This document shows positions 10,262-47,151 of a stretch of 64,000 nt of DNA, piece by piece; the first letter of the stretch is position 1, and every line of letters starts with the position of its first letter. Under the pieces are notes generated by a model. It did no database searches. It was not told the origin of the DNA and saw nothing but the letters and a program-made list of their open reading frames with translations. The position numbers and the translations under genes were made by a program. The stretch is from assembly GCA_903853805.1 (NCBI GenBank), contig CAINUN010000079.1, forward strand, positions 1-64,000, in the 5' to 3' direction. Origin of the DNA: an uncultured Bacteroidota bacterium. Lineage in GTDB: Bacteria > Bacteroidota > Bacteroidia > Chitinophagales > Chitinophagaceae.

Positions 10262-10383
10262 TTAAATTCGAAGATCTAATTACTAATTTCCATATTCTAA
10301 ACACGTAATTCTAAATTCGAAGTACTAATTTCTAATTCCTAATTTTCCCAATCAAAAATCTAAAATCACAAATCATCAATAAT
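10262..10383. repeat. Degenerate CTAATT-type low-complexity repeat
   Basis: This A/T-rich intergenic stretch repeats variants of CTAATT, TCTAAA and AATTCGAA (for example CTAATTTCTAATTCCTAATT near 10324-10343). It contains no open frame and no clear terminator. Similar simple intergenic repeats occur in other Bacteroidota genomes. It separates the CBS gene from the DUF3109 gene. Confidence 0.5.
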
Positions 10384-28821: not shown

Positions 28822-28980
28822 ATGCGATTGCAAAATCAATCGATTGGCTACTGCTATCCTATGTTTGCACTTCACCATCAATGGATGCGATACCCCAAAC
28901 ATTTGAGTGAGGTGTGGCTACCAATGTATGCTCTTCGCCATCAATGGATGCGATACCCCAAACATTTGATGGGGGAGTAA
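28822..28980 (+). CDS. Possible small protein with a 21-residue in-frame tandem duplication
   Basis: A 52-codon frame from ATG 28822 to TAA 28980, unknown to me. It contains two copies of a segment ending ALnHQWMRYPKHL (n is H or R), 63 bp apart, so the duplication keeps the frame. A promoter-like TAACTTTGC lies 28 bp upstream, and a 22-bp-spaced motif array lies above that. There is no signal peptide. The frame could be accidental, since the DNA repeat may serve as a binding site instead. Confidence 0.3.
   Translation: MRLQNQSIGYCYPMFALHHQWMRYPKHLSEVWLPMYALRHQWMRYPKHLMGE
28861..28969. repeat. Two 46-bp direct repeats with 63-bp period
   Basis: 28861-28906 and 28924-28969 match at 43 of 46 positions; the last 32 bases (from CCATCAATGG to CATTTGA) are identical. 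The period is three times 21. It lies within the possible small ORF. Confidence 0.85.
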
Positions 28981-29024
28981 AATCCTTTGATTTTGGAGCA
29001 AAAAAATTTGATTGGGGAGCACAA
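28974..29024 (+). repeat. Three 21-bp-spaced GGAGnAAAA-like motifs
   Basis: GGAGTAAAA at 28974, GGAGCAAAA at 28995 and GGAGCACAA at 29016 are spaced exactly 21 bp, with TTTGATT between them. The cluster resembles the 22-bp-spaced set at 28703. No gene lies between 28981 and 29347. Confidence 0.5.
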
Positions 29025-29145
29025 TCAAGGTTTTTTAAAATAGAAAATAATAATTTTATTGTGTAAATTATTGATTTTCAATATAAATAGTAAAATATCT
29101 CTGTTCCAAATGTTAGCGCAGCGCATCTGAAAGAAAAGGATAAAA

Positions 29146-33555: not shown

Positions 33556-36500
33556 TTATCTTACTAAGGTCACATTTCCCTGATAGGTTTCTACATAACC
33601 ATCAGGATAAGCCACACGAATTAGGTATTGATAAACGCCCATGTCTTGTGGAACACCTTTCCAAGTACCATCCCAACCTTTCTTAGGATCGTTAGTTGCG
33701 TACAATTCTTGACCCCAACGATTGAAGACTCTAAATTCCATCAAACGTTGGAAGGTAATATTGGTAACTTTAAAATTATCGTTTTTACCATCGCCATTAG
33801 GAGTAAATGCAGAAGGAACAAAGAGGTTATCTCTATAATCAATGTTTACATGAATTGAATCAACATTACGACAGCCGTTTTCTGCAATACCATAAACAAT
33901 GTATGTTGTTGGTTCTGTTGGGCTAGCATAAGGATTTACAATATTAGGGTTAGTCAAAGAAGACATTGGTTGCCAACTATAAAGATAAGCTCCAGAAACT
34001 AAGAACTGAAGAGACTGACCATATTTAATAGTAGTGTCGTTATTAAGGATGTGAACATTTGGTAATGGTTTCACAATAGCTTTAACTAATGAGGTATCAC
34101 TACAACCATCTGCATCTGTCATAACACAATAATAATTTGTGTTAACTAATGGAGTACCAATAACACTAGAGCAAGTACCACAATCCAATGTAGTTGGCGG
34201 ATCAAAAGAAGGATTTGAAATAGATAATGTTTGATCTTGAAACCACTGTGTAGAAGCAAAACTACCCGTTGAAATAGCTTTAAATGACTCTCCATAACAG
34301 AAGGCAGTATCTTTAGGCCAAGTGCTATAATCGTGAATAGGTACTTTAATTAAAACAGAATCCTGAATTTTACAGCCATTTCCACCAATAGAAGTTACTA
34401 TATACTTAGCTGTTTTATCAACATATACTGATGGGCTTCCTGAGGTAGAATCGGAAAGATATCTACCAGGGTTCCAAGTAAAATGAAACGCATCATACGG
34501 AGCTCTACAAAAGCTAAACTTTATTTCTGGACGAACGGAATAATATACTGTACCAGCTGAAACAGTAGGATTGATACAAATATTTGCCGTACCAGAGTTA
34601 GCAAAATTAACACCCATTGATTCAGATGGTGTTGTAAGTGCACTGATAGATGCAGCTGTTCCAGTTCCAGGATTACTATAACAAATTTCAATAATAATAT
34701 TTTTAGTCGAATCCCAATTATATGGAGTATCAAAATTAAACCACTTCCAACCAGTTGCATTTAATGAAATTGGACCTGGTGCAGTATAAACAACTAATGC
34801 CCCTTGTTCAAAGCCACCATTTTGAGCATTAAGAATTTTTCGGTCGGTACAAACCATTGAAATTTTGAAATTATTGTAGGTAGTTGTTGTACCATTAGTA
34901 ATATTAAATCCTAATCCGTAAATAGTGGAAGGTTTCATACTATAATCATACAAGTCTTTTTTACGAATGAGAATTTGAATTCTTGAAGTACGGAAAGAAG
35001 GGAATGGCGTTTGGATATTAGTATTCAACAATACTGTACCCATTTCCTGACTTAGGATATCAGCTGTATCTTGAGTTGCACAAACTAAAGGATTGGATGT
35101 ACCACATGTAAGATTTGTTAACGGAGGATTACCAATTCCTTGGGCATCAATCTGCATATATCCAGGGCGGCAAACTACAGAATACTGTGGTGAAGCTTTA
35201 ACAGAATTGGATGTATCAATAATTACATTTACTGTATCTGAACCATGACATCCTATAGGGATAGCAGGTGTACTTACAATATATGTCATATTGTATGGCG
35301 GATAAGCGTAAGGATTTTTTACATTCGCATCGCTAATTCCAATTGGATTACTACCGCCGTTTCCATCAGTCCATGTATAAGGAACATTATTGGGACCAGT
35401 GACATTAAACTGCCATGGCTGACCATCAACTTTACAAATTTTCCCGTCAGGACCAGCATTTACAATAGGAACAACCTTAATAAATACAACTAAGAAGTTA
35501 GGCAATACAATAGGTTGTGTATTATTACAAGTTGAATCTTTAACTGTTACAATTAATGTATAATCTCCAATATCGCCAACTGTAGGTGTCCAAGTAAAAG
35601 TACCTGTTGGATTTTGACCTCCTTGACCAGATACAGTAAATGTTGAAGTTGGGAAAACCATGTTGTTATTACATGACATATACAACATATTAGTCACTGA
35701 GTTTGTATGACCTGAAACAGAAAAACTCATTTGACAATCTGGTGCAGCAACAATATACTTATCACCAGCAGGAGCTGTTGCCACATAACAGTTATTAGGA
35801 TTTTGAGGTACTGTATCAATTGAAGGTGCAGGTGCAATACAGTTCAATACAGATACCTGAACATCTCGCATAATTGAGCTTATAAGTACTCCAGTATTTC
35901 TATCATATTTATAACACTTGAATCCAAGAACATATTTACCAATAAGATTAGGCGTAAAAGTAGCTGTAGCTGTATTCGGATTTACAAAATAAGGAAAAGA
36001 AGATGCTATTGGTGATGTTAATGTATATGTTCCTTGGTAAGGAATAGTTACACCAGTTGTGGCGCAACCTGATGTGGTTCCAAGATCATTAGGCTGGCTA
36101 TTTACAGAGTATAATGAATCATTATTGGGATCGAATGGACCGTTAAGAAAGAACGCAGGCTGGTCAATACATAAATATGGAATAGGATCAATTAAAAATC
36201 TTGGTGAACTCGCATTCCATTTTGCTGCATTATTTAAAATACACTCAATATACATCCCACGACCAGAGGGACCATTTAAATTTGAAATTAAGGCATTCCT
36301 ACAACAAAGATTCCAAGAAAACTTCCAGTCAGTACATGCAGATGGAAGTGTGATAGTATCACTATATATTCTGCGTTCAAAACCAGGGTATTGAGAACCT
36401 GGAACACGACAAGAGTTGATGGATTTAAACGTATCGCATAGCTGATCTAAAGTATCAGGACCCTGTGTCATTGGTAAATTTCTATTACATGTACCAATAG

Positions 36501-36747
36501 GTCCTCCACAACTTGATGATATTTGAACATTTGCTGTATTTCCCAAACCTGCATTACCAGTCTCACATGCTTTGAATAATACTAATGTTACTCTGTATCT
36601 TAAATCATTGGGATGTAATCCAATAAAATCAACATACAAATCTGCAGCAGCAACGTGTGATGCAGATGCTTTGTTGGAAAATAAACAGAGAGACAACAGT
36701 AGAATACTGAAAAACTGGCTTCTGAGTGTTCTTAAATAATTAACCAT
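33556..36747 (-). CDS. Giant surface protein with T9SS type B (gliding-associated) C-terminus
   Basis: A 1063-residue exported protein. The signal peptide ends near NKASASHVAAADLYVDF. The body is a chain of Ig/PKD-like beta modules rich in Thr, Asn and paired cysteines. The final 90 residues, with FVPSAFTPNGDGKNDNF, FRVFNRWGQELY, GWDGTWKG and GVYQYLI, are the type B sorting domain (CHU_C). Such proteins are exported by T9SS, often together with PorP/SprF-like partners; no such partner is seen here. It is paralogous to the next gene upstream, sharing the opening ASHxAxAxL, 45 bp apart. Confidence 0.88.
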   Translation of the reverse strand: MVNYLRTLRSQFFSILLLSLCLFSNKASASHVAAADLYVDFIGLHPNDLRYRVTLVLFKACETGNAGLGNTANVQISSSCGGPIGTCNRNLPMTQGPDTLDQLCDTFKSINSCRVPGSQYPGFERRIYSDTITLPSACTDWKFSWNLCCRNALISNLNGPSGRGMYIECILNNAAKWNASSPRFLIDPIPYLCIDQPAFFLNGPFDPNNDSLYSVNSQPNDLGTTSGCATTGVTIPYQGTYTLTSPIASSFPYFVNPNTATATFTPNLIGKYVLGFKCYKYDRNTGVLISSIMRDVQVSVLNCIAPAPSIDTVPQNPNNCYVATAPAGDKYIVAAPDCQMSFSVSGHTNSVTNMLYMSCNNNMVFPTSTFTVSGQGGQNPTGTFTWTPTVGDIGDYTLIVTVKDSTCNNTQPIVLPNFLVVFIKVVPIVNAGPDGKICKVDGQPWQFNVTGPNNVPYTWTDGNGGSNPIGISDANVKNPYAYPPYNMTYIVSTPAIPIGCHGSDTVNVIIDTSNSVKASPQYSVVCRPGYMQIDAQGIGNPPLTNLTCGTSNPLVCATQDTADILSQEMGTVLLNTNIQTPFPSFRTSRIQILIRKKDLYDYSMKPSTIYGLGFNITNGTTTTYNNFKISMVCTDRKILNAQNGGFEQGALVVYTAPGPISLNATGWKWFNFDTPYNWDSTKNIIIEICYSNPGTGTAASISALTTPSESMGVNFANSGTANICINPTVSAGTVYYSVRPEIKFSFCRAPYDAFHFTWNPGRYLSDSTSGSPSVYVDKTAKYIVTSIGGNGCKIQDSVLIKVPIHDYSTWPKDTAFCYGESFKAISTGSFASTQWFQDQTLSISNPSFDPPTTLDCGTCSSVIGTPLVNTNYYCVMTDADGCSDTSLVKAIVKPLPNVHILNNDTTIKYGQSLQFLVSGAYLYSWQPMSSLTNPNIVNPYASPTEPTTYIVYGIAENGCRNVDSIHVNIDYRDNLFVPSAFTPNGDGKNDNFKVTNITFQRLMEFRVFNRWGQELYATNDPKKGWDGTWKGVPQDMGVYQYLIRVAYPDGYVETYQGNVTLVR

Positions 36748-36792
36748 TGTGTGTGCTTTTACTGTTAGTTGTAAATTTATTTTGAAAGTTTT

Positions 36793-39741
36793 TTATCGAA
36801 TTAATGTAATGTTTCCTTGCTTGGTAAATCTTCTTCCATTTGGAGAAACAGCTTCAACTGTATAAACATAAACGCCCATTGGTTGTGCTTTTCCATTAAA
36901 ATTACCATCCCAACCATCATTTAAGTTTGCTGTTTCAAATACTTTCTGACCCCAACGATTAAAGATTGTAAATGCAACCAAATTAGCATTGCCTAAATGA
37001 TTTATTTTAATCAAACCATTTGGTCCTGCTCCTGGAGTAAATGCATTTGGCACTCCTAAGTCAGAATCATAAGACACATACACATCAATTGAGTCGACAG
37101 CAGTACATCCAGCCTCAGTAGAAGTTTGTACAAAATACCTTGTATTTACGTTTGGTGTTGCTATTGGGTTAGAAATGTTTGTTTCACTTAATCCTAATGG
37201 TGGGAACCATTGGAAATATAAACCATTGCCACCTGGATCCATTTGATAACTATCACCAGGGTAAAGTCTTACAGAGTCTGGTAATGTTAAAACAGCATCT
37301 GGTTTAACTTCTACGGTAAGATATGCGGTATCCTTACAATTATTTGTGTCCACAGCTATTACAGTGTAAGTGGTAGTAGTAACTGGGAAAGCAACAGGTG
37401 TTTTTGTATTGGCATTATAGAGGTAATAATCTGGAGACCAAGCAATTGAAGAGATGGTGTTTCCATTAGCTCTAATATGCGCTGAATCACGTGGACATAT
37501 TGCTGTGTCGCTTGAAAGCTGCATAAACGTAGCATTGATTACCGTAAATTTCACTTGGTCACTTCCATTACATTTTGCAGGTGTTTTTACTGTTAATACA
37601 AGATTAGTAGTTTGTAATGCAGTAAAAATTGGATTTGGTGTATTTTGACTATTTAATCCTCCAGCAGGTGTCCAAGTATAAGAATAAAAAGGATAACTTG
37701 ATGGTGTAACTATTGATTTTAAATGAACAGTATCACCCATACACAATATTCTATCAACGCCTACATAAACGGTTGGATTTGGCTGAACATCAATATAAAT
37801 CTTAGCAATACTATCGGAACAACCAGGATAAGATGCTTTGATAACATACATGCGTGAAGTATCAGGTGAGATTCCTGGGTTAATGATATTTGGATTATTA
37901 ACACCAATTGTTGGAGACCACTTATAAGTATAAGCAGTTTCTCCTATTGCTTGAATTTGAACTGTTTGTCCTTTACATATTGCTGTATCAGAATTGAACA
38001 GTGTAAAGCCTTGAAGAACATTTACGAAGAGCGTATCTCTACCACCACACTGCCCTACTCCGCCAGGGATTACGGTAACTACATAAGTAGTATCGTGCAT
38101 TGGTTTTACCCAAGGATTGGCAATAGTATCATTGCTTAAGAAGGTACTTGGGAACCAATTGATGGAATATGAAGTATTAGGTGCAGGAATAAGATTAATA
38201 TTTAAGTGTGCACTATCACCATTACAAGTAGTAATATCTGGACCTAAGTTAAAATTAGGTGGCGGTAAAACATCGACAGTAACCGTGTCGCTATGTGTGA
38301 AACAAAGCGTGTTGCCTGAAGTAGAAGTAACTACATACTGCGTAGAAACACTAGGAGAAGCCCACGGATTAGCACAGTTGGTACAACTTAATGAACTTAG
38401 GGGAGCGCCACCCGGTAATACATCCCATTGATAAGTAAGACCACCATGTGCCCAAAGTTGAATAGAATCTATACTACAAATGGCTGTGTCAGGACCGCCT
38501 TTGGTTGGACCCCATACAAAAAGTGGAATCGTAAACGTATTGGACAACAATATGCCCGGTGGTGTACAAGTGGAGTCTTTAACGGTAACGTTAAGCACTG
38601 TTAAACCTGTATCTGCCATTGTTGGGTTCCAAGTAAAACAACCTTGAATATTTGCAGAACCATTTCCTGTAAAAACAAGGTTAGAACCAGCTGCTATTGC
38701 TGCATTGTTTGCAGTGGCTACCAATACCGCTGTAGGATTGGTAGGCGAGTTGATATTGAAACAGAAATTAAATGGCTGACCTGCACAACCTTGCACCTGA
38801 CCATTCACCAATTGAACACCTGTAAGTGTTGTAGAATCGGGAACTAAGTTAGGTGGGTTGCTCGAACAAGGCATTATTACCCATTGCATGTCGCGAATGA
38901 TAGAACCAATTTTCATTCCGTTTTTCCATTCGTTTACACGAATTGTCAAAACTTGTTTACCCAGCAAACTTGGTGTTAATGTCAAGGCACCTGTAGTTGC
39001 GCTCAAAGAAAATGTATTGTTACAACCAATTGGATTATTCGTAAGATTAAATACAGGAAGTGTTCCTCCGGTTGCAAATGTGCAAGGTGAACTTGGTGTT
39101 GTACAACTTCCGCCACCATCGAGTGGCATAATCAATTCATAAGAAAGAGAATCATTGTTTGGGTCAACAGCTCCGTTATTGAAGATAAAAGGAGAGTTCA
39201 CACACATATAACCAATTGGCTTTACTGTAAAGAATGGTGAGGAATTGCCTTGTGCATTCAAATTATCTAAAGTGGCTTCTACATAAAGTGCAGCACCACC
39301 TGGAGCATTAAGATTGACAATGGTAGAATTTCTTGCTGAAATAGAAACAAAGAAGGTCCAATAATTACATTGTGAAGGAAGTGTAACCGTTCCTGAGTAT
39401 TTCCATTCTTTGTATCCTGGTGTTGTTCCACCACTACATTCAGTAGGATAGCCTGGACAACCCGGGCTTACATCAACACCATTTACACCACCGGATTTTT
39501 GCATCGTTAAGTTTCCTGTACCGCCACAAGTATTGTGATAGCATAAAGAAACGGATGTAGGTTCAGTAATAGCCCCTGGTTCGCAAGAGCGATAGAATGT
39601 ATAAGTGAACTTGTAAGTAGAGCCACTTATCCAATCATACCTTAATTCGGCACCTGCTGCGTGCGATGCTTTTACCTGAGTATTGAACAAGAAAAACAAA
39701 CCGACTGTTAAAAACAGAAAGGAGTAAATTTTATTTTTCAT
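36793..39741 (-). CDS. Paralogous giant surface protein with T9SS type B C-terminus
   Basis: A 982-residue exported protein with a signal peptide ending near QVKASHAAGAELRYDW. It contains repeated beta modules with the recurring phrases TYxVxA, PNIxNP and GxDTxIC. The C-terminal type B sorting domain has GVPNAFTPGAGPNG, FTIFNRWGQKVFE, GWDGNFNG and GVYVYTV. The N-terminal about 280 residues align in pattern with the protein at 33556-36747 (NLNAPGGAALYVE against NLNGPSGRGMYIE), so the two arose by tandem duplication. ATG 39741 or 39747 are both possible starts. No enzymatic motif is visible. Confidence 0.88.
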   Translation of the reverse strand: MKNKIYSFLFLTVGLFFLFNTQVKASHAAGAELRYDWISGSTYKFTYTFYRSCEPGAITEPTSVSLCYHNTCGGTGNLTMQKSGGVNGVDVSPGCPGYPTECSGGTTPGYKEWKYSGTVTLPSQCNYWTFFVSISARNSTIVNLNAPGGAALYVEATLDNLNAQGNSSPFFTVKPIGYMCVNSPFIFNNGAVDPNNDSLSYELIMPLDGGGSCTTPSSPCTFATGGTLPVFNLTNNPIGCNNTFSLSATTGALTLTPSLLGKQVLTIRVNEWKNGMKIGSIIRDMQWVIMPCSSNPPNLVPDSTTLTGVQLVNGQVQGCAGQPFNFCFNINSPTNPTAVLVATANNAAIAAGSNLVFTGNGSANIQGCFTWNPTMADTGLTVLNVTVKDSTCTPPGILLSNTFTIPLFVWGPTKGGPDTAICSIDSIQLWAHGGLTYQWDVLPGGAPLSSLSCTNCANPWASPSVSTQYVVTSTSGNTLCFTHSDTVTVDVLPPPNFNLGPDITTCNGDSAHLNINLIPAPNTSYSINWFPSTFLSNDTIANPWVKPMHDTTYVVTVIPGGVGQCGGRDTLFVNVLQGFTLFNSDTAICKGQTVQIQAIGETAYTYKWSPTIGVNNPNIINPGISPDTSRMYVIKASYPGCSDSIAKIYIDVQPNPTVYVGVDRILCMGDTVHLKSIVTPSSYPFYSYTWTPAGGLNSQNTPNPIFTALQTTNLVLTVKTPAKCNGSDQVKFTVINATFMQLSSDTAICPRDSAHIRANGNTISSIAWSPDYYLYNANTKTPVAFPVTTTTYTVIAVDTNNCKDTAYLTVEVKPDAVLTLPDSVRLYPGDSYQMDPGGNGLYFQWFPPLGLSETNISNPIATPNVNTRYFVQTSTEAGCTAVDSIDVYVSYDSDLGVPNAFTPGAGPNGLIKINHLGNANLVAFTIFNRWGQKVFETANLNDGWDGNFNGKAQPMGVYVYTVEAVSPNGRRFTKQGNITLIR

Positions 39742-39772
39742 TTGCATAAAAATTTAAAAAAAACTTTGGAAA

Positions 39773-39780
39773 CAAATATA
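39773..39780 (-). promoter_or_regulatory. Promoter -7 element of the type B T9SS pair
   Basis: On the minus strand this reads TATATTTG, 31 bp before the ATG at 39741. It probably drives both large surface-protein genes. Confidence 0.55.
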
Positions 39781-39968
39781 ATGGTAAAGTTCTGAAACGC
39801 AAGCCATTCCTAAAACTTCTTTTTTTATTGCTTCATTCATACCTAAGACAAGTGCTTGATTGATTAAGTTGGGTGATGATGGCTATTTTTTAAAAGAAAT
39901 TCACAGGGCTTTAAGGTTTGAAGCCAAAAAGGAAAAATTTGTGCTCATAAAAAACGCCCTATTAAGGC

Positions 39969-40005
39969 AAAAAAACAGGCATTTAGAAAAATGCCCGTTT
40001 TTTTT
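39969..40005 (-). terminator. Bidirectional terminator hairpin
   Basis: A 9-bp stem with one mismatch (39976-39984 with 39989-39997) has an A-run before it and a T-run after it, so it can act in either direction. It ends the minus-strand gene at 40067. The rest of 39781-40066 holds no gene. Confidence 0.7.
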
Positions 40006-40066
40006 TCTTAACCATAAAAAAATGTAGGACTATGCCACCACCTACAAAAAGTTTAATTGAATTTCT

Positions 40067-40516
40067 TTACTTAAAAAACTGTTTTAGTTCAGCGGCTTTA
40101 GTATCAAAGCCTGTGCCCGCTTGTGTATCAGCCTTATACTGTGTGTATTTATAATCAACCAATGCGTTTTGAAAATTATCATAGTCATGCAAACGACGAG
40201 TTTCAATCAATGTTTGAGTTAATGCTTGTAAACGCAAAATAGAAGCTTCTAAAAATTTCCTATCGAAGCCATCAGCCGCAAACTCTGTCCAATCTACATC
40301 GGGGCTGCGCAAAGCTGGTTGGTTCACAGAATAATCGCTTACTTTATTCACCATCAATTTGTTGGTTTCATCAATAGTGCCATACTTATTGTTTTCATCC
40401 TCGCTCAGGTTTTGCGTTTTTGCAGTAAAAATAGCTTCAACCGCAGTCATGGTTGTGTTGAAAGAAGTTTGGTCGGCAGCAACAAAATGCTTTTGAATTA
40501 CATCTTGAAAAGGCAT
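40067..40516 (-). CDS. Uncharacterised 149-residue protein
   Basis: A soluble, probably mostly helical protein with no signal peptide, membrane segment or catalytic motif I recognise. It is polar, with NLSEDENNKYGTIDETNKLM near the middle and a conserved-looking LHDYDNFQNALVDYKYTQYK helix near the end. It is monocistronic: its own promoter (40559) lies under a palindromic operator at 40588, and a terminator follows at 39969. The tight control suggests a conditionally expressed gene. Function is unknown. Confidence 0.55.
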   Translation of the reverse strand: MPFQDVIQKHFVAADQTSFNTTMTAVEAIFTAKTQNLSEDENNKYGTIDETNKLMVNKVSDYSVNQPALRSPDVDWTEFAADGFDRKFLEASILRLQALTQTLIETRRLHDYDNFQNALVDYKYTQYKADTQAGTGFDTKAAELKQFFK

Positions 40517-40558
40517 TGTTTAAAAATTTTAAAGCGTGATAAATAAAGTTTGATTAAA

Positions 40559-40566
40559 CAAAGGTA
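40559..40566 (-). promoter_or_regulatory. Promoter -7 element of the 149-residue protein gene
   Basis: On the minus strand this reads TACCTTTG, 42 bp before the ATG. The palindrome at 40588-40603 covers its -33 region. Confidence 0.55.
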
Positions 40567-40587
40567 GAAAGTCATAAATGCAGAATT

Positions 40588-40603
40588 AATGACGCTCGTC
40601 ATT
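40588..40603. promoter_or_regulatory. Perfect 16-bp palindromic operator
   Basis: AATGACG-CT-CGTCATT is a perfect inverted repeat. Its distance from the -7 element places it over the -33 site of the minus-strand promoter, the position of a repressor operator. TGAC-GTCA half-sites are typical of TetR- or MarR-type dimers. The binding protein is unknown; the MarR gene at 44065 is one candidate. Confidence 0.5.
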
Positions 40604-40662
40604 GCTAAAAATATAATTTTCAGGAATAAAAACCTGAGATTAACTAAATAAGATGTTGTTAG

Positions 40663-40890
40663 CACAGTGAAGTAACTTTGGCATCCAAGCTAAATAACTT
40701 GGATAGCCAAGCTAAATAACTTGGTCAGCCAAGCCAAATAACTTGGACAGCCAAGCCAAATAACTTGGACAGCCAAGCCAAATAACTTGGACAGCCAAGC
40801 CAAATAACTTGGACGGCGAAGCCAAATAACTTGGACAGCCAAGCCAAATAACTTGGATGTCGAAGCTAAATAACTTGGACAACCAAGTGA
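40663..40890 (+). repeat. 22-bp tandem palindromic array (nine full units)
   Basis: Nine contiguous 22-bp units run from 40685 to 40882 with consensus CCAAGCCAAATAACTTGGAC plus AG, and degenerate half-units flank them (40663-40684 and from 40883). Units 3, 4 and 5 are identical; outer units diverge. Each unit is an inverted repeat, CCAAG-N8-CTTGG, and neighbouring units also pair as CTTGG-N4-CCAAG. There are no spacers, so it is not CRISPR. The last unit supplies the TTG at 40875-40877, 20 bp before the -7 element at 40898. Confidence 0.95.
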
Positions 40891-40897
40891 AGTCTAT

Positions 40898-40906
40898 TAT
40901 TTTTGC
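40898..40906 (+). promoter_or_regulatory. Promoter -7 element downstream of the 22-bp array
   Basis: TATTTTTGC matches TAnnTTTGC. The -33 TTG (40875-40877) lies inside the last array unit, so a protein bound to the array would compete with or contact RNA polymerase. Confidence 0.6.
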
Positions 40907-40926
40907 TGTTAAAAAGAAAAGTATTC

Positions 40927-41256
40927 ATGAAAAACAAAACCATAAGAAGAGTTGCCACGATGAATTACGGAGAAATTATTGGAAAGCAAGTAGCTCTTCA
41001 AAAGGAAGACTTAGTGAGCCTTGCAGCAAAACTGAATGTATTGAGCGGATATGATTTAAAACTTATCTTCAAACGTCCGCGCATTTATGCCGACTTTTTT
41101 TGGGATGCAGGCATTGCCATGAACCACAATTTTTTCACCGACCTCGCAGCCCTTCATCCTGTGAAGCAAGCCACCGCCCGAGAAAAAGAATTGGAGCAAG
41201 AAAATGCCGACCTTAAAAAAGAAAATGAGCTGCTGAAGAGCTTGATAAGAAGGTGA
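40927..41256 (+). CDS. Small HTH-like protein with C-terminal leucine zipper
   Basis: A 109-residue basic/charged protein; ATG 40927 is 21 bp after the promoter element, and ATG 40960 (MNYGEIIGK) is an alternative. Residues about 12-65 (YGEIIGKQVALQKEDLVSLAAKLNV, then a following helix) look like a degenerate Xre-type helix-turn-helix. The last 27 residues form a coiled coil with heptad Leu and Glu/Lys (ELEQENADLKKENELLKSL). DNA binding as a dimer is inference, supported by the palindromic 22-bp array overlapping its promoter. I do not recognise a named family. Confidence 0.6.
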   Translation: MKNKTIRRVATMNYGEIIGKQVALQKEDLVSLAAKLNVLSGYDLKLIFKRPRIYADFFWDAGIAMNHNFFTDLAALHPVKQATAREKELEQENADLKKENELLKSLIRR

Positions 41257-41278
41257 GGAAATGAATTTCACCGCGAAG

Positions 41279-41326
41279 GTGTAAAGATGTAAAGGTGTAA
41301 AGGTGTAAAGATGTAAAGGTGTAAAG
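41279..41326 (+). repeat. 8-bp tandem repeat, six units
   Basis: Units of RTGTAAAG (four GTGTAAAG, two ATGTAAAG) run without gaps 23 bp after the stop codon of the small zipper gene. Copy number of such a simple repeat may vary by slippage. No gene lies between 41257 and 41358. Confidence 0.9.
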
Positions 41327-41358
41327 TTGTAGCGAATGTTTTTTAACCTTAGCGACTT

Positions 41359-41619
41359 TCAGCCATTCAACTGCGTATCAATATGCTTTTGATGAAGATT
41401 GTTCAAAAATGCCTCTCTATCAAAGTTTTTTACAAAGCCCGATTGTTCTCCTTTTATCAATTCGTTTATAAGTTCTGTCTTTTTTGTTTCTTCATATTCA
41501 AACAAACGCAAAGCTGCTCTTACCACTTCGCTAACTGAGGAAAATTTCCCAGTTTCAATTTGCTTATGAATGAAGTTATCGTAATAATCGCTTAACAATA
41601 TAGAAGTGCTTTTAGCCAT
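41359..41619 (-). CDS. ParD-family antitoxin, apparently without its toxin
   Basis: An 86-residue protein with an N-terminal ribbon-helix-helix (STSILLSDYYDNFIHKQIETG, FSSVSEVVRAALRLFEYEE) and a C-terminal toxin-binding tail (LIKGEQSGFVKNFDREAFL), the layout of ParD antitoxins. Start ATG 41619 is favoured over an earlier frame start at 41658 and lies 14 bp from a promoter element. ParE usually follows directly, but downstream lie only 102 bp and the 8-bp repeat; upstream is a glycosyltransferase. It is either an orphan remnant, an anti-addiction copy, or paired with a distant toxin. Confidence 0.85.
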   Translation of the reverse strand: MAKSTSILLSDYYDNFIHKQIETGKFSSVSEVVRAALRLFEYEETKKTELINELIKGEQSGFVKNFDREAFLNNLHQKHIDTQLNG

Positions 41620-41633
41620 TAGAATGTTTTTTT

Positions 41634-41641
41634 CAAAAATA
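41634..41641 (-). promoter_or_regulatory. Promoter -7 element of the parD-like gene
   Basis: On the minus strand this reads TATTTTTG, 14 bp before the ATG at 41619. Confidence 0.5.
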
Positions 41642-41682
41642 ATATTTATTGGAATCACTTTTAGAATGACGGTTTAGAATTC

Positions 41683-42687
41683 TCACCCCCAACTCTTCTT
41701 CACAAAAGCCACTATAGCCTCCAAATTCAAATCGTTCATACACTTAAAATGTCGTTTGGGGCAGCGACCATAACCTAGTTTGGAACAAGGGTGACAAGAA
41801 ATATTTTTGTTTTCGGCTATGAAGGATAGCGGTGCAACGATTGTTTTCAAGTTGTTGTAGCCATAATACGGAAACATGCCCATTTCGGGCGAGGTGTTTC
41901 CCCACAGCGACACCAAAGGCTTTTTAAAAGCAGCTGCAATGTGCATCAAGCCCGTATCGTTGCTAATCACCACACGCGCTTTTTCTACCAACCTCGCCGA
42001 TTCGCTGAGGTTAAATTTTCCGCAAGCGTTATAGGTTTTCACGCTGTCGGGTTCGGCAATGAGGTCGCCCTCGTCGCGGTCGTCGGGTCCGCCCAAAAGA
42101 ATGACGGGGTAAGGAATGAGCGCAATGAGTTGTTTCCATTTTTCCACTGGCAGTTTTTTGGTGCCGTAAGAACCGCCAATGACACAGCCCACATAGCCCG
42201 CCCAATGACTCATAGGCACATCTCTATTGGTAAGCTGAAATTTTTCGTCAATAAAATAATCAAGCCCTTGCCCATCGTTTTTCACATCAAGGGTTTTCAC
42301 GGTTTCAAAGTAGCGCTCCACAATGCTTTGGTCGGGCATTCGGTTGATTTTAAGAATGACGTAGAGCCATTTTTCAATATTCAGTTTATTAAAAGAAAAA
42401 GCAGGCACTTGCAAAGCGCGTTTCACTTTAGCGGTGCGCAAGTTGTGGTGCAAGTCGAAGATGTAGTCGAACTTTTCTTTTTTCAAGATTTCGATAGTGG
42501 CATCAAGGTCGTTATCCAACAAATGAAGATAGTCGATATAGGGATTTGCCTTCAACACCGGCTCAAAAAAAGCTTTGGTGAGGAAGTGAATTTCCACATC
42601 GGGGCGCTGTAGTTTCAAACACCTGATGACGGGGGTAGTGAGTACAATATCTCCAATAGAAGAAAAACGAATGATGAGCGCTTTCAT
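41683..42687 (-). CDS. Family 9 glycosyltransferase (LPS heptosyltransferase-like)
   Basis: A 334-residue cytoplasmic/peripheral membrane enzyme. The N-terminus KALIIRFSSIGDIVLTTPVI is the GT9 signature. The C-terminal nucleotide-sugar domain has VISNDTGLMHIAAAFKKPLVSLWGNTSP, with the D-T-G-x-x-H-x-A motif of WaaC/WaaF/RfaQ. It should transfer heptose or another sugar to the lipopolysaccharide core. A Cys cluster near the end (ISCHPCSKLGYGRCPKRHFKCM) is common in GT9 proteins. ATG 42687 is chosen because the signature begins there. Confidence 0.9.
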   Translation of the reverse strand: MKALIIRFSSIGDIVLTTPVIRCLKLQRPDVEIHFLTKAFFEPVLKANPYIDYLHLLDNDLDATIEILKKEKFDYIFDLHHNLRTAKVKRALQVPAFSFNKLNIEKWLYVILKINRMPDQSIVERYFETVKTLDVKNDGQGLDYFIDEKFQLTNRDVPMSHWAGYVGCVIGGSYGTKKLPVEKWKQLIALIPYPVILLGGPDDRDEGDLIAEPDSVKTYNACGKFNLSESARLVEKARVVISNDTGLMHIAAAFKKPLVSLWGNTSPEMGMFPYYGYNNLKTIVAPLSFIAENKNISCHPCSKLGYGRCPKRHFKCMNDLNLEAIVAFVKKSWG

Positions 42688-42804
42688 GGGGCGAAAATTA
42701 GTACATAAATTTTTCCCATCACTCAGTTCAGTAATTGAGCTAATTTCGAACAAGTAATTCGTATTGTGGCGCACAAAAGCGTCTTATTAAAAAACTCCCA
42801 ACTC

Positions 42805-43986
42805 ATGCAAAGACTATTTTGGTCTGTGATTATTTTTTTGCCTTTTCTTTTTGCAAACACTCTTAAAGCAAATCCTAACGACACGCTTAAAGTGGTGAAT
42901 TGGAACCTTGAATATTTTGGCGATAAAGCATCGGAACTACCCAATGAAATGATTTATACCAAAACCATCATGGACAGCCTGAATGCAGATATTTATGCCT
43001 TGGTAGAAGTGGTGAATAAAGACTCTTTAATAAGCCTTGTCAATTCCTTAAACGGAGATTATGGTTACATGATAGCACCCTTTGGCACATTAGCAACATC
43101 AGAGTTATCCAGTTATTGGGCAAGCGACCAAAAGCAAGCAATTATTTATAGAAAATCGGTGGTAAGAAACGTTACAGGAAGAGCTTTTATGAAAACAAGC
43201 AGTAGTGCTTATAATGATTGGGGAAGTGGTAGATTTCCTTTTCTTGTCAATGCAGAAATTCTTGGGGCAGATAATAAATGGACTTCCATTCCCTTCATCA
43301 TCATTCACGCCAAAGCATATAGCGACGCCACATCTTGCACCCGCAGAAAAGATGGAGCCATTGAACTGAAAGATTCTTTAGATCAATATTTTGCTAACAA
43401 TCGCTTCCTATTATTGGGCGATTATAATGATGATTTAGACACCACCATTTGCAGCAATTATACCGTTAGCAACTATGAAAATTTTGTGAATGATAGTTTG
43501 CATTATTACTCACCAACACTAGCACTTTCAAGACAAGGAATTAGCTCAATTAAAGGCTACACAAGTTTCATTGACCATGTGATTATGAGCGATGAAATGC
43601 AAACCTATTATGTGCCTAATAGTACTGAAATGCTAAAAAGCAAAGTGAATAATTGGGTAAGCAATTACAACACTTACTTATCAGATCATTATCCGGTGGA
43701 ATCAAAATACATTATTACAACACCAACATCAGTAGCTGCTGTTTTTGAAAATAATTTTCGCGTTTTCCCAAATCCTTCAAGCACGTTATTGAACATTGAA
43801 CAAAAGCAAGCAAGTCCTTGTTTTTATGAGTTGTATTCCATGACCGGACAATTAATTTTCAATGCTAATTTTTCAACTAAAAGTGCAGCTATTTCTGTAG
43901 AAAATTTAGCTTCAGGCACCTACTTATTACGCATCACCAACCAACAAAAAACTGCTGCATTTTTTGCCCTAATTTCAAAGCCATAA
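42805..43986 (+). CDS. Secreted endonuclease/exonuclease/phosphatase-family enzyme with T9SS type A tail
   Basis: A 393-residue exported enzyme. The signal peptide is clean only from ATG 42805; the GTG at 42766 would add 13 residues before it. The EEP fold shows NWNLEYFGDKA, the acidic residue in ALVEVVNKD, LLLGDYNDDLD, FIDHVIMS and the catalytic SDHYPVESKY. It should cleave phosphodiesters, probably extracellular nucleic acid. The last 75 residues (VFPNPSSTLLNIEQK to LISKP) are a T9SS type A sorting domain. A DNase/RNase role in nutrient scavenging is inferred. Confidence 0.88.
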   Translation: MQRLFWSVIIFLPFLFANTLKANPNDTLKVVNWNLEYFGDKASELPNEMIYTKTIMDSLNADIYALVEVVNKDSLISLVNSLNGDYGYMIAPFGTLATSELSSYWASDQKQAIIYRKSVVRNVTGRAFMKTSSSAYNDWGSGRFPFLVNAEILGADNKWTSIPFIIIHAKAYSDATSCTRRKDGAIELKDSLDQYFANNRFLLLGDYNDDLDTTICSNYTVSNYENFVNDSLHYYSPTLALSRQGISSIKGYTSFIDHVIMSDEMQTYYVPNSTEMLKSKVNNWVSNYNTYLSDHYPVESKYIITTPTSVAAVFENNFRVFPNPSSTLLNIEQKQASPCFYELYSMTGQLIFNANFSTKSAAISVENLASGTYLLRITNQQKTAAFFALISKP

Positions 43987-44030
43987 ACTTCCTTAAAAAC
44001 CTTTTTGATAGCGACATCGAAGGTTTTTAT

Positions 44031-44061
44031 TTTGCAGATAGGTGTATGTACATATATTTGC
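44031..44061 (+). promoter_or_regulatory. Complete Bacteroidota-type promoter of marR
   Basis: TTTG at 44031-44034 (-33) is spaced 18 bp from TATATTTGC at 44053-44061 (-7). The ATG follows only four bases after the G, so the mRNA is likely leaderless. Confidence 0.65.
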
Positions 44062-44064
44062 AGC

Positions 44065-44520
44065 ATGAAACTGGAAGAAGCCTTAAAAACCGACCGGTTT
44101 AAAAACGAAAGTCACAAGGCAACACTTAATATTTTATACACCGCCTATTGGTTTAAAACGCACTTGAATAGCGTTATGAAAACTTATGGCATTACTGCTG
44201 AACAATTTAATGTAATGCGCATTCTTAAAGGCAAGCACCCTGAGGCTATGTGTGTGAAAGACATTGGTTCGCGAATGTTGGAAAACAACTCTAATGTTCC
44301 CCGAATCATTGACCGTTTATTGCTGAAAAAACTGGTGAAACGCACCACTTCAAAACTAGACAAAAGAGAAACCTTGATTTCACTAACGAATAGCGGCAAG
44401 GAACAACTCACCCAAATTAGCGAGGCAGTGGAAATGAAAACTAGCGACATTATTGGTCTTGAAAACGAAGAAGCGATTCAACTGAATTTATTAATTGAAA
44501 GACTTAGAAAAATAGATTAA
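44065..44520 (+). CDS. MarR-family transcriptional regulator
   Basis: A 151-residue regulator with a winged helix-turn-helix at about 50-115 (KTYGITAEQFNVMRIL, NVPRIIDRLLLKKLVKR, DKRETLISLTNSGKEQL). It starts at ATG 44065, directly after a strong promoter. It precedes a YceI-like gene by 25 bp; marR-yceI pairs are common in Bacteroidota, and the regulator probably controls its own operon. The ligand is unknown. The palindrome at 40588 could be one of its targets. Confidence 0.9.
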   Translation: MKLEEALKTDRFKNESHKATLNILYTAYWFKTHLNSVMKTYGITAEQFNVMRILKGKHPEAMCVKDIGSRMLENNSNVPRIIDRLLLKKLVKRTTSKLDKRETLISLTNSGKEQLTQISEAVEMKTSDIIGLENEEAIQLNLLIERLRKID

Positions 44521-44545
44521 TTAACCAAATAAAAAACCAACAAAA

Positions 44546-45076
44546 ATGGCAACAACAAACTGGAACATCGATTCCACACACTCAGAAGTGCAATTCAAAG
44601 TAAAGCACATGATGATTTCAACCGTTACTGGTCAATTCAACAATTTCACGGCTACAGTTGTTACTGAAGAAAACGATTTTAGTACCGCTAAGATTGATTT
44701 CACTGCAGAGATAAGCAGCATCAGCACCAACAACGAACAAAGAGATGGTCATTTGAAATCAGGCGATTTCTTTGATGCTGAAAACCATCCTCAAATTTCT
44801 TTCAAAGGCAATGGCATGACTAAAGTTTCTGACGAAGAATATCAATTGAATGGCGAATTGACAATGCGTGGCGTTACCAAACCGGTTTCTTTAAAAGCAG
44901 AATTTGGTGGCATTGCAACAGACCCTTGGGGAATGGTGCGTGCTGGTTTTACACTCGAAGGAAAAATAAACCGTAAAGATTTCGGCGTAAGTTTTTCTGC
45001 TATTACAGAAGCAGGTCATCTTTTAGTGAGCGATGAAATACGCTTGAACATTAATGCAGAGTTTGTAAAACAATAA
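44546..45076 (+). CDS. YceI family lipid-binding-like protein
   Basis: A 176-residue beta-barrel of the YceI lipocalin-like fold, with WNIDSTHSEVQFKVKHMMIS at the N-terminus, FDAENHPQISFKG and LTMRGVTKPVSL. It lacks a signal peptide, unlike E. coli YceI, so it should stay in the cytoplasm. The family binds polyisoprenoids or similar hydrophobic molecules. It is the second gene after marR and is closed by a terminator at 45097. Confidence 0.92.
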   Translation: MATTNWNIDSTHSEVQFKVKHMMISTVTGQFNNFTATVVTEENDFSTAKIDFTAEISSISTNNEQRDGHLKSGDFFDAENHPQISFKGNGMTKVSDEEYQLNGELTMRGVTKPVSLKAEFGGIATDPWGMVRAGFTLEGKINRKDFGVSFSAITEAGHLLVSDEIRLNINAEFVKQ

Positions 45077-45096
45077 TTAATATTAAGAAAACTAAG

Positions 45097-45120
45097 AGCC
45101 ACCAATTTTGGTGGCTTTTT
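45097..45120 (+). terminator. Rho-independent terminator after yceI
   Basis: AGCCACCAA (45097-45105) pairs with TTGGTGGCT (45108-45116), followed by T residues to 45120. Confidence 0.85.
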
Positions 45121-45134
45121 GCATTCAATGAGAT

Positions 45135-45143
45135 TACTTTTGC
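45135..45143 (+). promoter_or_regulatory. Promoter -7 element of surE, next to its start codon
   Basis: TACTTTTGC matches the consensus. The ATG at 45147 follows four bases after the G, as in marR and prmA. Confidence 0.6.
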
Positions 45144-45146
45144 TTT

Positions 45147-45929
45147 ATGAATCAAGACCAACCTATTATTCTTATAACCAACGATGATGGCATTACGGCA
45201 CCGGGCATTCGCAATTTGGTGGAAGCAGTAAAAGACCTCGGTCATGTGGTGGTGGTAGCACCCGATAGTCCTCAATCGGGCATGGGTCATGCCATTACTA
45301 TTGGTGAAGTATTGCGCCTTCATAAAGTAGCTGTGATGGAAGGAGTGGAATGTTGGCAAACAAGCGGCACACCGGCAGATTGTGTCAAACTTGCAAGAGA
45401 TAAAGTGCTTCATCGAAAACCAACAATTTGCCTTAGTGGCATCAATCATGGAGCTAATAATTCCATCAATATCTTGTATTCTGGCACTATGTCGGCAGCT
45501 ATGGAAGCGGCTATTGAGGGTATACCTTCAGTAGGATTTTCGCTACTTGATTATAGTTACGATGCCGACTTTACATTAGCGAGAAAAGTGGTGCGAACAA
45601 TAACAAAGCAATTGCTGAAAGTACAAATGCCAGAGCATACTTTGTTCAACGTAAACATTCCAAAAGGAGAAGAAAAAGATTTTAAGGGTATTAAATTTTG
45701 TAGACAAGCACATGCAAAATGGCAAGAAGAATTTGACGAACGCACCGACCCTCGTGGCGAAAAATATTATTGGATGACTGGCAAATTCCTCAATTTGGAT
45801 GAAGGTAGTGACACAGATGTAGCAGCATTGAAAGATGGATTTGCTTCTATTGTTCCGGTGAAATTTGACTTAACTGATTACAAAATGAAGCTAAGATTGG
45901 AAGTTGAGTGGAAAGGAATGAGCATTTGA
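45147..45929 (+). CDS. surE: 5'-nucleotidase SurE
   Basis: A 260-residue metal-dependent nucleotidase. The N-terminal acidic cluster ILITNDDGITAPGI binds the divalent metal; APDSPQSGMGHAIT and SGINHGANNSINILYSGTMS are the other conserved motifs. It dephosphorylates nucleoside 5'- and 3'-monophosphates in the cytoplasm and is linked to stationary-phase survival. It stands 49 bp before purM, which has its own promoter element. Confidence 0.95.
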   Translation: MNQDQPIILITNDDGITAPGIRNLVEAVKDLGHVVVVAPDSPQSGMGHAITIGEVLRLHKVAVMEGVECWQTSGTPADCVKLARDKVLHRKPTICLSGINHGANNSINILYSGTMSAAMEAAIEGIPSVGFSLLDYSYDADFTLARKVVRTITKQLLKVQMPEHTLFNVNIPKGEEKDFKGIKFCRQAHAKWQEEFDERTDPRGEKYYWMTGKFLNLDEGSDTDVAALKDGFASIVPVKFDLTDYKMKLRLEVEWKGMSI

Positions 45930-45953
45930 GTTTTAGCAATAATCTCATGTTGT

Positions 45954-45962
45954 TATCTTTGC
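45954..45962 (+). promoter_or_regulatory. Promoter -7 element of purM
   Basis: TATCTTTGC matches TAnnTTTGC and lies 16 bp before the purM ATG. Confidence 0.6.
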
Positions 45963-45978
45963 GGCTCATTCTCATTTC

Positions 45979-47151
45979 ATGACCGACAACAACCGCTATA
46001 ACCTTCGAGGAGTTTCTGCTAAAAAAGAAGACGTTCATAAAGCCATTTCAAAATTGGATAAAGGGCTATTCCCGAATGCATTCTGCAAAATTTATCCTGA
46101 TTTTTGGGGCAACGACGATGCTTTTTGCAACCTGATGCATGCAGATGGTGCAGGCACAAAATCGGTTCTCGCTTATCTTTATTGGAAAGAAACAGGTGAC
46201 CTCAGTGTGTGGAAAGGAATTGCGATTGACGCCATTGTAATGAATATTGACGACCTACTTTGTGTAGGAGCAACTGGGCCTTTTACTTATTCATCTACTA
46301 TTGGAAGAAACAAGAATTTAATTCCAGGAGAAATTATTTCAGAACTCATTAATGGAAGTCAAGAATACTTTGAAACACTTAATCAATATGGGATTGAAGT
46401 CAACTTTTTAGGCGGTGAAACAGCAGATGTTGGCGATGTGGTAAGAACAGTCATAGTTGATGGAACAATGGCTTGCAGAATGAGAAGAGACAAACTGGTA
46501 ACAACCGAAAAAATGATTGCAGGAGATGTAGTGGTGAGCCTTGCAAGCTACGGTCAAGCAAGCTATGAAACCGAATACAATAGTGGAATGGGTAGCAATG
46601 GCTTAACAAGTGCACGCCATGAAATGTTGCATAAAGATTATGCAAAGCAATATCCTGAAAGCGTTGACCCAAATCTACCAAGTGAAGTTGTTTACAATGG
46701 AAAATATCATTTGACAGACGCAACTACTACGCCTTTAAACATAGGCAAACTCATCCTATCCCCTACTCGCACTTATGCACCTGTTATCTTAAAGGTTTTA
46801 GAAAAACATTTCAATGCCATCCACGGCATTATACATTGCAGCGGTGGCGGACAAAGTAAGGTACTTCATTATTTGCCTAAAGCTTTGAAAGTGGTAAAAA
46901 ACAATCTTTTGCCAATCCCTCCTTTATTCAATATGATTCAAGAAGCCGCTGGAACAGATTGGAAAGAAATGTATCAGGTGTTTAACATGGGACAACGACT
47001 TGAAATATATACTGATACAGAAACTGCAAAGTCAATTATTGAAATTGCATCGACATTCAATATTGAGGCTTGTATATCTGGGTATGTTGCTGACTCAATG
47101 GTAAAAGAAGTAGTTATAGAATCGGATACAGGAAGCTTTATTTATCAATAA
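45979..47151 (+). CDS. purM: Phosphoribosylformylglycinamidine cyclo-ligase
   Basis: A 390-residue AIR synthetase of the purine pathway, closing the imidazole ring with ATP. Motifs are MHADGAGTKSVLAYLYW, MNIDDLLCVGA, FLGGETADVGDVV and HCSGGGQSKVLHYLP. The order matches the PurM/SelD superfamily. It is about 40 residues longer than E. coli PurM, as in several Bacteroidota. A terminator follows at 47181. No other purine gene is nearby. Confidence 0.93.
   Translation: MTDNNRYNLRGVSAKKEDVHKAISKLDKGLFPNAFCKIYPDFWGNDDAFCNLMHADGAGTKSVLAYLYWKETGDLSVWKGIAIDAIVMNIDDLLCVGATGPFTYSSTIGRNKNLIPGEIISELINGSQEYFETLNQYGIEVNFLGGETADVGDVVRTVIVDGTMACRMRRDKLVTTEKMIAGDVVVSLASYGQASYETEYNSGMGSNGLTSARHEMLHKDYAKQYPESVDPNLPSEVVYNGKYHLTDATTTPLNIGKLILSPTRTYAPVILKVLEKHFNAIHGIIHCSGGGQSKVLHYLPKALKVVKNNLLPIPPLFNMIQEAAGTDWKEMYQVFNMGQRLEIYTDTETAKSIIEIASTFNIEACISGYVADSMVKEVVIESDTGSFIYQ

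Follow-up and report, generated by a model that had tools for sequence, protein, structure and literature searches.

The window considered here, that is the whole analysed stretch of 64,000 nucleotides from an uncultured member of the Chitinophagaceae, contains a phased repeat array which runs up to the start of a small gene, with a second small gene pointing away from it on the other side. Tandem Repeats Finder places the array at 40673-40887 with a period of 22 (9.8 copies, 89% matches, score 325), the top score among the six rows obtained for the 64 kb; two further, weak 21-bp rows of about three copies each lie at 10275-10344 and 28963-29027. Motif searching and phased listing resolve the array into nine contiguous 22-bp units on the forward strand (40685-40882), as an earlier, sequence-only reading of this DNA had described, preceded by one degenerate unit (40663-40684) and followed by a degenerate half unit, CCAAGTGAAGTCTAT (40883-40897), both also anticipated in that reading. 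The central copies had been called identical, which is true of three units (starting at 40729, 40751 and 40773), the next one differing by one base. Each unit had likewise been taken to be an inverted repeat CCAAG-N8-CTTGG; at up to one mismatch all nine are, two of them carrying that mismatch, and nine of the 11 such sites in the window fall within the array (mean 1.63 and largest 5 in 100 shuffles). The alternative hairpin CTTGG-N4-CCAAG, which had also been pointed out, is indeed present in the units, and the sequence does not discriminate which of the two dyads is used. CRISPR arrays combine repeats with unlike spacers; here the entire 22-bp units are near-identical, and no cas-like genes were noticed by eye among the open reading frames (ORFs) of 36000-46000.

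The array ends in a candidate promoter. Its last unit contains TTG at 40875-40877 as a candidate −33 element, and TATTTTTG at 40898-40905, also on the forward strand, is the candidate −7 element, with 20 nt between the two, exactly as had been proposed. The latter assignment uses TAnnTTTG, given as the flavobacterial sigma-A −7 consensus in PMC9723704, and the element is retained in a second genomic copy of the locus.

For the gene that follows, the ORF list gives a start at TTG 40903 (117 aa), while the ATG at 40927 yields a protein of 109 residues, the length expected from the earlier reading, with the stop codon ending at 41256 (40927-41256, forward strand). The AlphaFold2 model of this protein (pLDDT 85) has helices at residues 14-24, 29-35, 41-48, 55-64 and 69-76, plus one at 84-108, and it shows, as a prediction only, the five-helix XRE fold. 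Residues 41-48 (41047-41070, forward strand) form the predicted recognition helix, a role assigned by analogy with that fold, and the C-terminal helix of residues 84-108 (41176-41250, forward strand) appears by eye to be leucine-zipper-like. Foldseek searches with the model return mostly XRE proteins in the top rows with a probability of about 1, but with E values of only about 0.1 and no row at E ≤ 0.001. Sequence searches of Pfam, PHROG, NCBIfam and PDB with the protein, which has a pI of 9.6, give no convincing match; in Pfam and NCBIfam every model stays under its cut-off for it and for five relatives, HTH_3 appearing under the cut-off in four of the five relatives (E 0.028-0.15) and not in the window protein. 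The product of 40927-41256 is accordingly best described, as a prediction, as an XRE-fold helix-turn-helix (HTH) protein with a C-terminal coiled-coil-like helix, close to the likely helix-turn-helix and C-terminal zipper that had been read from the sequence.

The gene on the other side of the array (40067-40516, reverse strand) encodes an acidic protein of 149 aa (pI 4.9), all-helical in its predicted structure (pLDDT 90.5), which appears to be a remote member of what we term the partner family, a gene of about 160 aa found upstream of the HTH gene in eight loci. Against the eight-member profile of this family it scores 27.0 bits with hmmsearch (E 2.1e-7 among 999 shuffles, of which the best reaches 10.4 bits), and hhalign gives E 2e-5 with a probability of 77. 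The partner and HTH genes of the window are divergent, unlike the same-strand order of other loci. The family has no convincing relative in Pfam, NCBIfam, PHROG or PDB; the lowest E values in the fold search were 4.4 in PDB and 3.0 in a viral library, and a second structural comparison gave a best Z of 3.8 over 13 chains, in a range that is uninformative for that tool. Elsewhere in the neighbourhood, 8/24-bp repeats (AAGGTGTA) lie at 41276-41331, immediately 3′ of the HTH gene stop, and are not found beside the second copy of the gene on contig C36; a ParD-type antitoxin gene adjoins the module (41359-41631, reverse strand; Pfam ParD_antitoxin E 6.1e-25); and two adjacent large proteins of 1063 and 984 aa (33556-36747 and 36793-39747, reverse strand), with similar starts and ends, appear by eye to be secreted surface proteins.

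The second copy of array plus gene in the source genome (gene at C36:19004-19330) encodes a protein 95% identical to that of the window, and the DNA of the two copies, C79 and C36, is 91-92% identical from the array to a point within about 20 bp beyond the stop codon, outside which the flanks are unlike. It begins (L031:4225-4590, G000:C36) about 195 bp past the 3′ end of the tmRNA gene (tag GESTYAMAA), tmRNA ends being a common integration spot. Arrays of the same sequence family also occur without the gene, at C49:9942-10179 after a clpP-like gene (named by eye) and, in a short degenerate form, at C50:92088-92180. The idea that each copy of the array would sit beside a homologue of the protein is consequently upheld by the second copy and contradicted by at least two gene-less arrays, all within the source genome, to which the exact pattern CCAAG-N8-CTTGG-N4-CCAAG is confined among 294 genomes of the family. 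Six other genomes of the genus contain no close DNA relatives except one 28-base match, and a first search of genome contigs with the window HTH protein gave no matches. In viral contigs the pattern was met in 62 stretches with a single match each, taken as chance.

A third HTH paralogue of the source genome lies at contig edges, and the one upstream region examined (L139) has only a weak 21-bp signal, level with shuffles. Its near-identical copies stand at the ends of three contigs (G000 C49:3-344, C85:2-148 and C28:2-148); since these contigs end inside the copies, the multi-copy gene probably broke the assembly. Five other partner-family genes are present in the same genome, four of which adjoin arrays of other sequence in Tandem Repeats Finder (L200, L203, L204 and L205), with lag scores, as defined below, that are strong for L200 and modest for the other three. 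At L200:2747-3124, the end of G000:C85, the order is partner, terminator-like hairpin, 21-bp array, TATTTTTG and, truncated where the contig stops, a small ORF of a different kind (MEIKTAEEFRKM...); in other words, the gene behind an array can belong to another family.

The association of gene and array was measured, per distinct gene, as the best gapless tandem lag, freely chosen from 12 to 40, in the 600 bp upstream of homologues picked by protein similarity alone and not by array, using profiles built from the window HTH protein and its relatives. The HTH family is found in 20 of 294 family genomes (E ≤ 1e-3), 19 of 396 order genomes (1e-8) and 14 of 385 phylum genomes (1e-10), draws which overlap and include the source genome. 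Of 35 close homologues (>60 bits), 31 have a best upstream lag of 21 or 22, 22 of the 35 beating all 25 shuffles by more than 3, and the share with this lag falls with protein distance to 18 of 36 at 40-60 bits (12 strong) and three of 10 below. Downstream, the corresponding counts are 5/35, 1/36 and 1/10. Control regions, taken upstream of mechanical ORFs of at least 150 aa in stretches of two genomes that themselves carry such arrays (G544 and G174), have lag 21/22 in 32 of 268 cases, and three of the 268 a score above 18. Three HTH matches with less than 250 bp upstream are omitted from the tally (L208, L218 and the second L266 match), of which L208 has a 22-bp array. Homologues without arrays, which the sequence-only reading had named as evidence against itself, amount among the close members to four of 35 lacking a 21/22 lag, one of these (L117) having a 41/82-bp array; a 42/83-bp array is carried by L134.

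A later genome scan seeded with five relatives gave lag 21/22 in 24 of 26 named loci. When five repeats are dropped (L283, L291, L293, L294 and L297, four being copies from the same genome and L297 recognised by identical statistics), the new loci show it in 19 of 21 cases, 16 of the 21 strongly, and include Flavobacterium, Chryseobacterium and Kaistella. The motif TAnnTTTG occurs within 150 bp of the start codon in 15 of 56 loci (mean 5.4 and maximum 12 in 200 shuffles). Many loci are related by descent, and p-values that assume independence therefore make the case look stronger than it is. Judged from these comparisons, the array tends to track the HTH gene across one bacterial class, the Bacteroidia, and this association, together with the predicted fold, supports the earlier suggestion that an HTH/zipper protein, likely dimeric, has a phased array at the promoter of its own gene.

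Arrays without the protein, the other sign against that suggestion, were encountered in part. Besides those at C49 and C50, a 12.6-unit relative of the L113 array lies between other genes in G174 (G174:C4) with no HTH gene, and others adjoin partner genes in whose flanking DNA, over the length examined, no HTH relative occurs; an even sample of 400 kb from the contigs of G544 and G174 includes four arrays (at least five units; 21, 42 or 63 bp) in stretches without a match to either family. The array is, then, not tied to the HTH protein alone. Put differently, an array can be expected where the gene is present, but not the gene where an array is present, and the HTH protein appears from these comparisons to come with an array in most cases. 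For the L209 array, G249 contains no further copy. At L252:2410-3546 (G174) a 10-unit 21-bp array lies upstream of a 248-aa ORF without an assigned family; neither this ORF nor the small ORF of L200 has relatives in the loci compared, a set that leaves out the viral contigs L051-L112.

The sequence of the unit varies between loci, even between paralogues of one genome (G249), and the two-turn spacing persists across unlike arrays, often with palindromy. Similar units are found in the three closest protein pairs (C79/C36, L116/L206 and L275/L276). Orthologous loci of two Flavobacterium species (L284/L290 and L287/L288) retain their unit, so that fast array turnover is not general; in two species of another genus (L184 and L185) the partner proteins are nearly the same and the adjacent 15- and 16-unit arrays differ in unit. 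A palindrome test on the whole-unit consensus gives p < 0.05 in one of 20 arrays, the window array having p 0.22. A half-site test, chosen after the whole-unit test and comparing eight pairs around the best dyad with permuted columns, gives p < 0.05 in 13 of 33 arrays; every one of the 13 belongs to the 21 arrays whose members score above 80 bits (combined p 5e-12), and none of the 12 arrays of 41-53-bit members is significant. It is significant in six of 15 new arrays, some of them orthologues (combined p 9e-6). Dyad mispairs in the 13 palindromic arrays are balanced, at 20 G-T against 21 A-C, which argues for recognition of DNA rather than for RNA hairpins.

In the proteins of L144, L145, L146 and L160 the recognition-helix region is changed in 10 of 15 columns, against 16 of 59 elsewhere (p 0.0065, in a tally that omits residues 25-28), and dN/dS is 0.35 there against 0.07, so that the recognition-helix value stays under 1, with dS close to saturation. 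Of the arrays in this group, those of L144 and L146 resemble each other in part, and that of L160 resembles neither. Such a concentration is clear in one of six aligned protein groups, while in the other five it is not seen or the changes are too few to judge, and over 21 arrays there is no correlation between array similarity and protein identity (Mantel rho 0.05, p 0.31).

The partner family, found in 48 of 396 order genomes (E ≤ 1e-5), has arrays beside many of its genes. Among 65 distinct partners of at least 60 bits, lower-scoring ones being omitted, 58 have both flanks, and 31 of these 58 have, no more than 700 bp away, an array of lag 21/22 with a score over 17; other lags exceed this score in four of 60 upstream and one of 63 downstream flanks. 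The HTH gene is present near 12 of the 65. On the reading preferred below, the partner protein would be part of the older module. In one genus (L184, L185, L190, L225, L227, L229 and L230) the arrays precede the partner gene and the DNA examined around them contains no HTH relative; in several of these arrays two unit types take turns, so that the period becomes 42 bp.

Spacing, dyads and promoter position are most simply accounted for by a dimeric HTH protein on phased operators at its own promoter. The reading that we prefer, with a probability of a little over one half, is that a dimer of the HTH protein binds its own phased array and regulates its own gene, protein and array diverging together. 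The small XRE-type protein would dimerise via its C-terminal helix and place one dimer on each palindromic unit; with units 21-22 bp apart, about two helical turns, bound dimers would share one face of the DNA and could bind cooperatively. Since the array ends at the promoter of the HTH gene, its occupancy would set the expression of the protein, most simply by autorepression, and divergence of protein and array as a matched pair would give the differences in sequence between loci. Arrays of the same sequence elsewhere in a genome may be targets in trans or relics of lost copies. Against this stand the ten operators, which are many for simple repression, the absence of the HTH gene near many arrays, and the weak signal of the third paralogue, together with several results given above: the recognition-helix pattern clear in one protein group, its dN/dS under 1, the single positive among 20 arrays in the whole-unit palindrome test, the lack of significant palindromy in arrays of 41-53-bit members, and array similarity that does not follow protein identity.

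The most credible of the alternatives, though an unlikely one, is that the coiled-coil HTH protein coats one or more arrays in a partition-like or nucleoid-tethering role, as a chromosomal centromere-like complex, with autoregulation secondary. The locus shares with pSK1 Par and R388 StbA the placing of repeats around the promoter of the binding protein, no NTPase was noticed alongside, related arrays occur at several chromosomal sites, and at L184/L185 the units differ between two species of one genus beside a nearly constant partner protein. Set against this, the HTH protein of one relative has no tblastn match in 72,556 plasmid or 50,697 phage records (nor has the partner family in the plasmid records), the distribution is patchy (20 of 294 genomes of the family), a single centromere fits poorly with several unlike arrays in one genome, and the orthologous Flavobacterium arrays keep their unit. 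Speculative too, and improbable, is a satellite system of the Bacteroidia in which scattered arrays of phased 21/22-bp units, often palindromic, would act as chromosomal centromere-like or nucleoid-organising sites. Many of these arrays would be served by a recognition protein of their own and a helical partner, and sequence and reader would co-diverge, as a bacterial counterpart of centromere satellites.

It is doubtful that array and HTH gene are a mobile cassette spread together by the machinery of another element, with solo arrays as remnants. Such arrays do exist, the identity of C79 and C36 is confined to the array and gene, the homology of L116 and L206 (87%) covers everything between the end of the coding sequence and the array's outer edge, and L275 and L276 are near-identical over a shared 946 bp in one genome. 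On the other hand, no transposase was noticed in the ORF lists around both source-genome copies, L116 and L206 have a further block in common, and an acyl-CoA-dehydrogenase-like neighbour (named by eye), common to seven of the 26 named loci, looks vertical.

We consider it rather improbable that the array is the shared operator of a toxin-antitoxin-like or regulator-effector pair made up of HTH protein and partner. Where the HTH gene is present near a partner, it follows on the same strand in 11 of 12 loci, with 21/22 the best lag downstream of the partner in 10 of the 11; the window proteins are oppositely charged, and several copies occur per genome. Yet 53 of 65 partners have no HTH gene within about 1.5 kb on each side, 20 of the 26 named HTH loci have no partner (six have one), and a hairpin with T's behind it, terminator-like by eye, closes off the partner ahead of the array in L144-L146 and L200. 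Toxin models are moreover all far from cut-off, the best being HepT (E 0.061, 13.2 of 60 bits).

A neutral origin by slippage, the array being a satellite to which no protein binds, is very improbable: the arrays found away from HTH and partner genes would suit it, but the 21/22 spacing, the frequent palindromy and the position upstream of one protein subfamily would not. Finally, a role of the array as RNA, in the shape of transcribed hairpins, which the units can form and which the many arrays downstream of partner genes (lag 21/22 best in 34 of 63 downstream flanks) might suggest, can be virtually set aside in view of the near-equal mispairs without strand bias, the terminator-like hairpin ahead of the array in L144-L146 and L200, and the candidate promoter at its far end.

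A protein family and a DNA site that apparently diverge together, in dozens of natural pairs at fixed spacing, would help in learning how HTH specificity changes, and matched protein-array pairs would serve for building orthogonal regulators. Two unannotated protein families gain a testable link, and many repeat arrays in such genomes become placed rather than random. Were the arrays to organise or segregate DNA, this would be a motor-free chromosomal system, one without description in the open-access literature searched.

Among known systems, the one-operon layout of type II toxin-antitoxin loci is not seen here, the window genes being divergent and a terminator-like hairpin (by eye) separating partner and array in L144-L146 and L200. 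ParR of plasmid R1 has a ribbon-helix-helix fold; the present protein is predicted to be XRE-like, and no actin-like ATPase was noticed alongside. The promoter of the ParR/parC operon is reported to be flanked by ten direct repeats that make up the centromere, and the array lies likewise at a candidate promoter here. Proposed type IV plasmid partition, as in pSK1 Par and R388 StbA, uses one DNA-binding protein and a cis DNA site with no dedicated motor, according to PMC5016525, PMC3098194 and PMC11500499, the R388 stbDRs being described in the second of these as two groups, each of five 9-bp repeats, at the stb promoter. A single DNA-binding protein, its binding predicted, with a repeat array at its gene is common to both. 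The module differs in being chromosomal, in its units of 21-22 bp, often palindromic, where the R388 repeats, as given there, are 9 bp spaced by 2, in its recurring partner family and in arrays that vary between loci; Pfam and NCBIfam give the window protein no convincing family match bearing on Par or StbA. XRE-family repressors (434 Cro, SinR and HipB) are alike in predicted DNA-binding fold and in having the regulator gene behind its own operators. Unlike them, these loci carry arrays of some 3-20 units with two-turn phasing and a locus-specific sequence, and the window protein and five relatives fall below the Pfam and NCBIfam cut-offs. The sequence-only reading knew of no matching system, and searches of the open-access literature, which gave no description of such a module, agree with it; the same layout with different repeats in relatives points to an undescribed kind of matched protein-and-repeat module.
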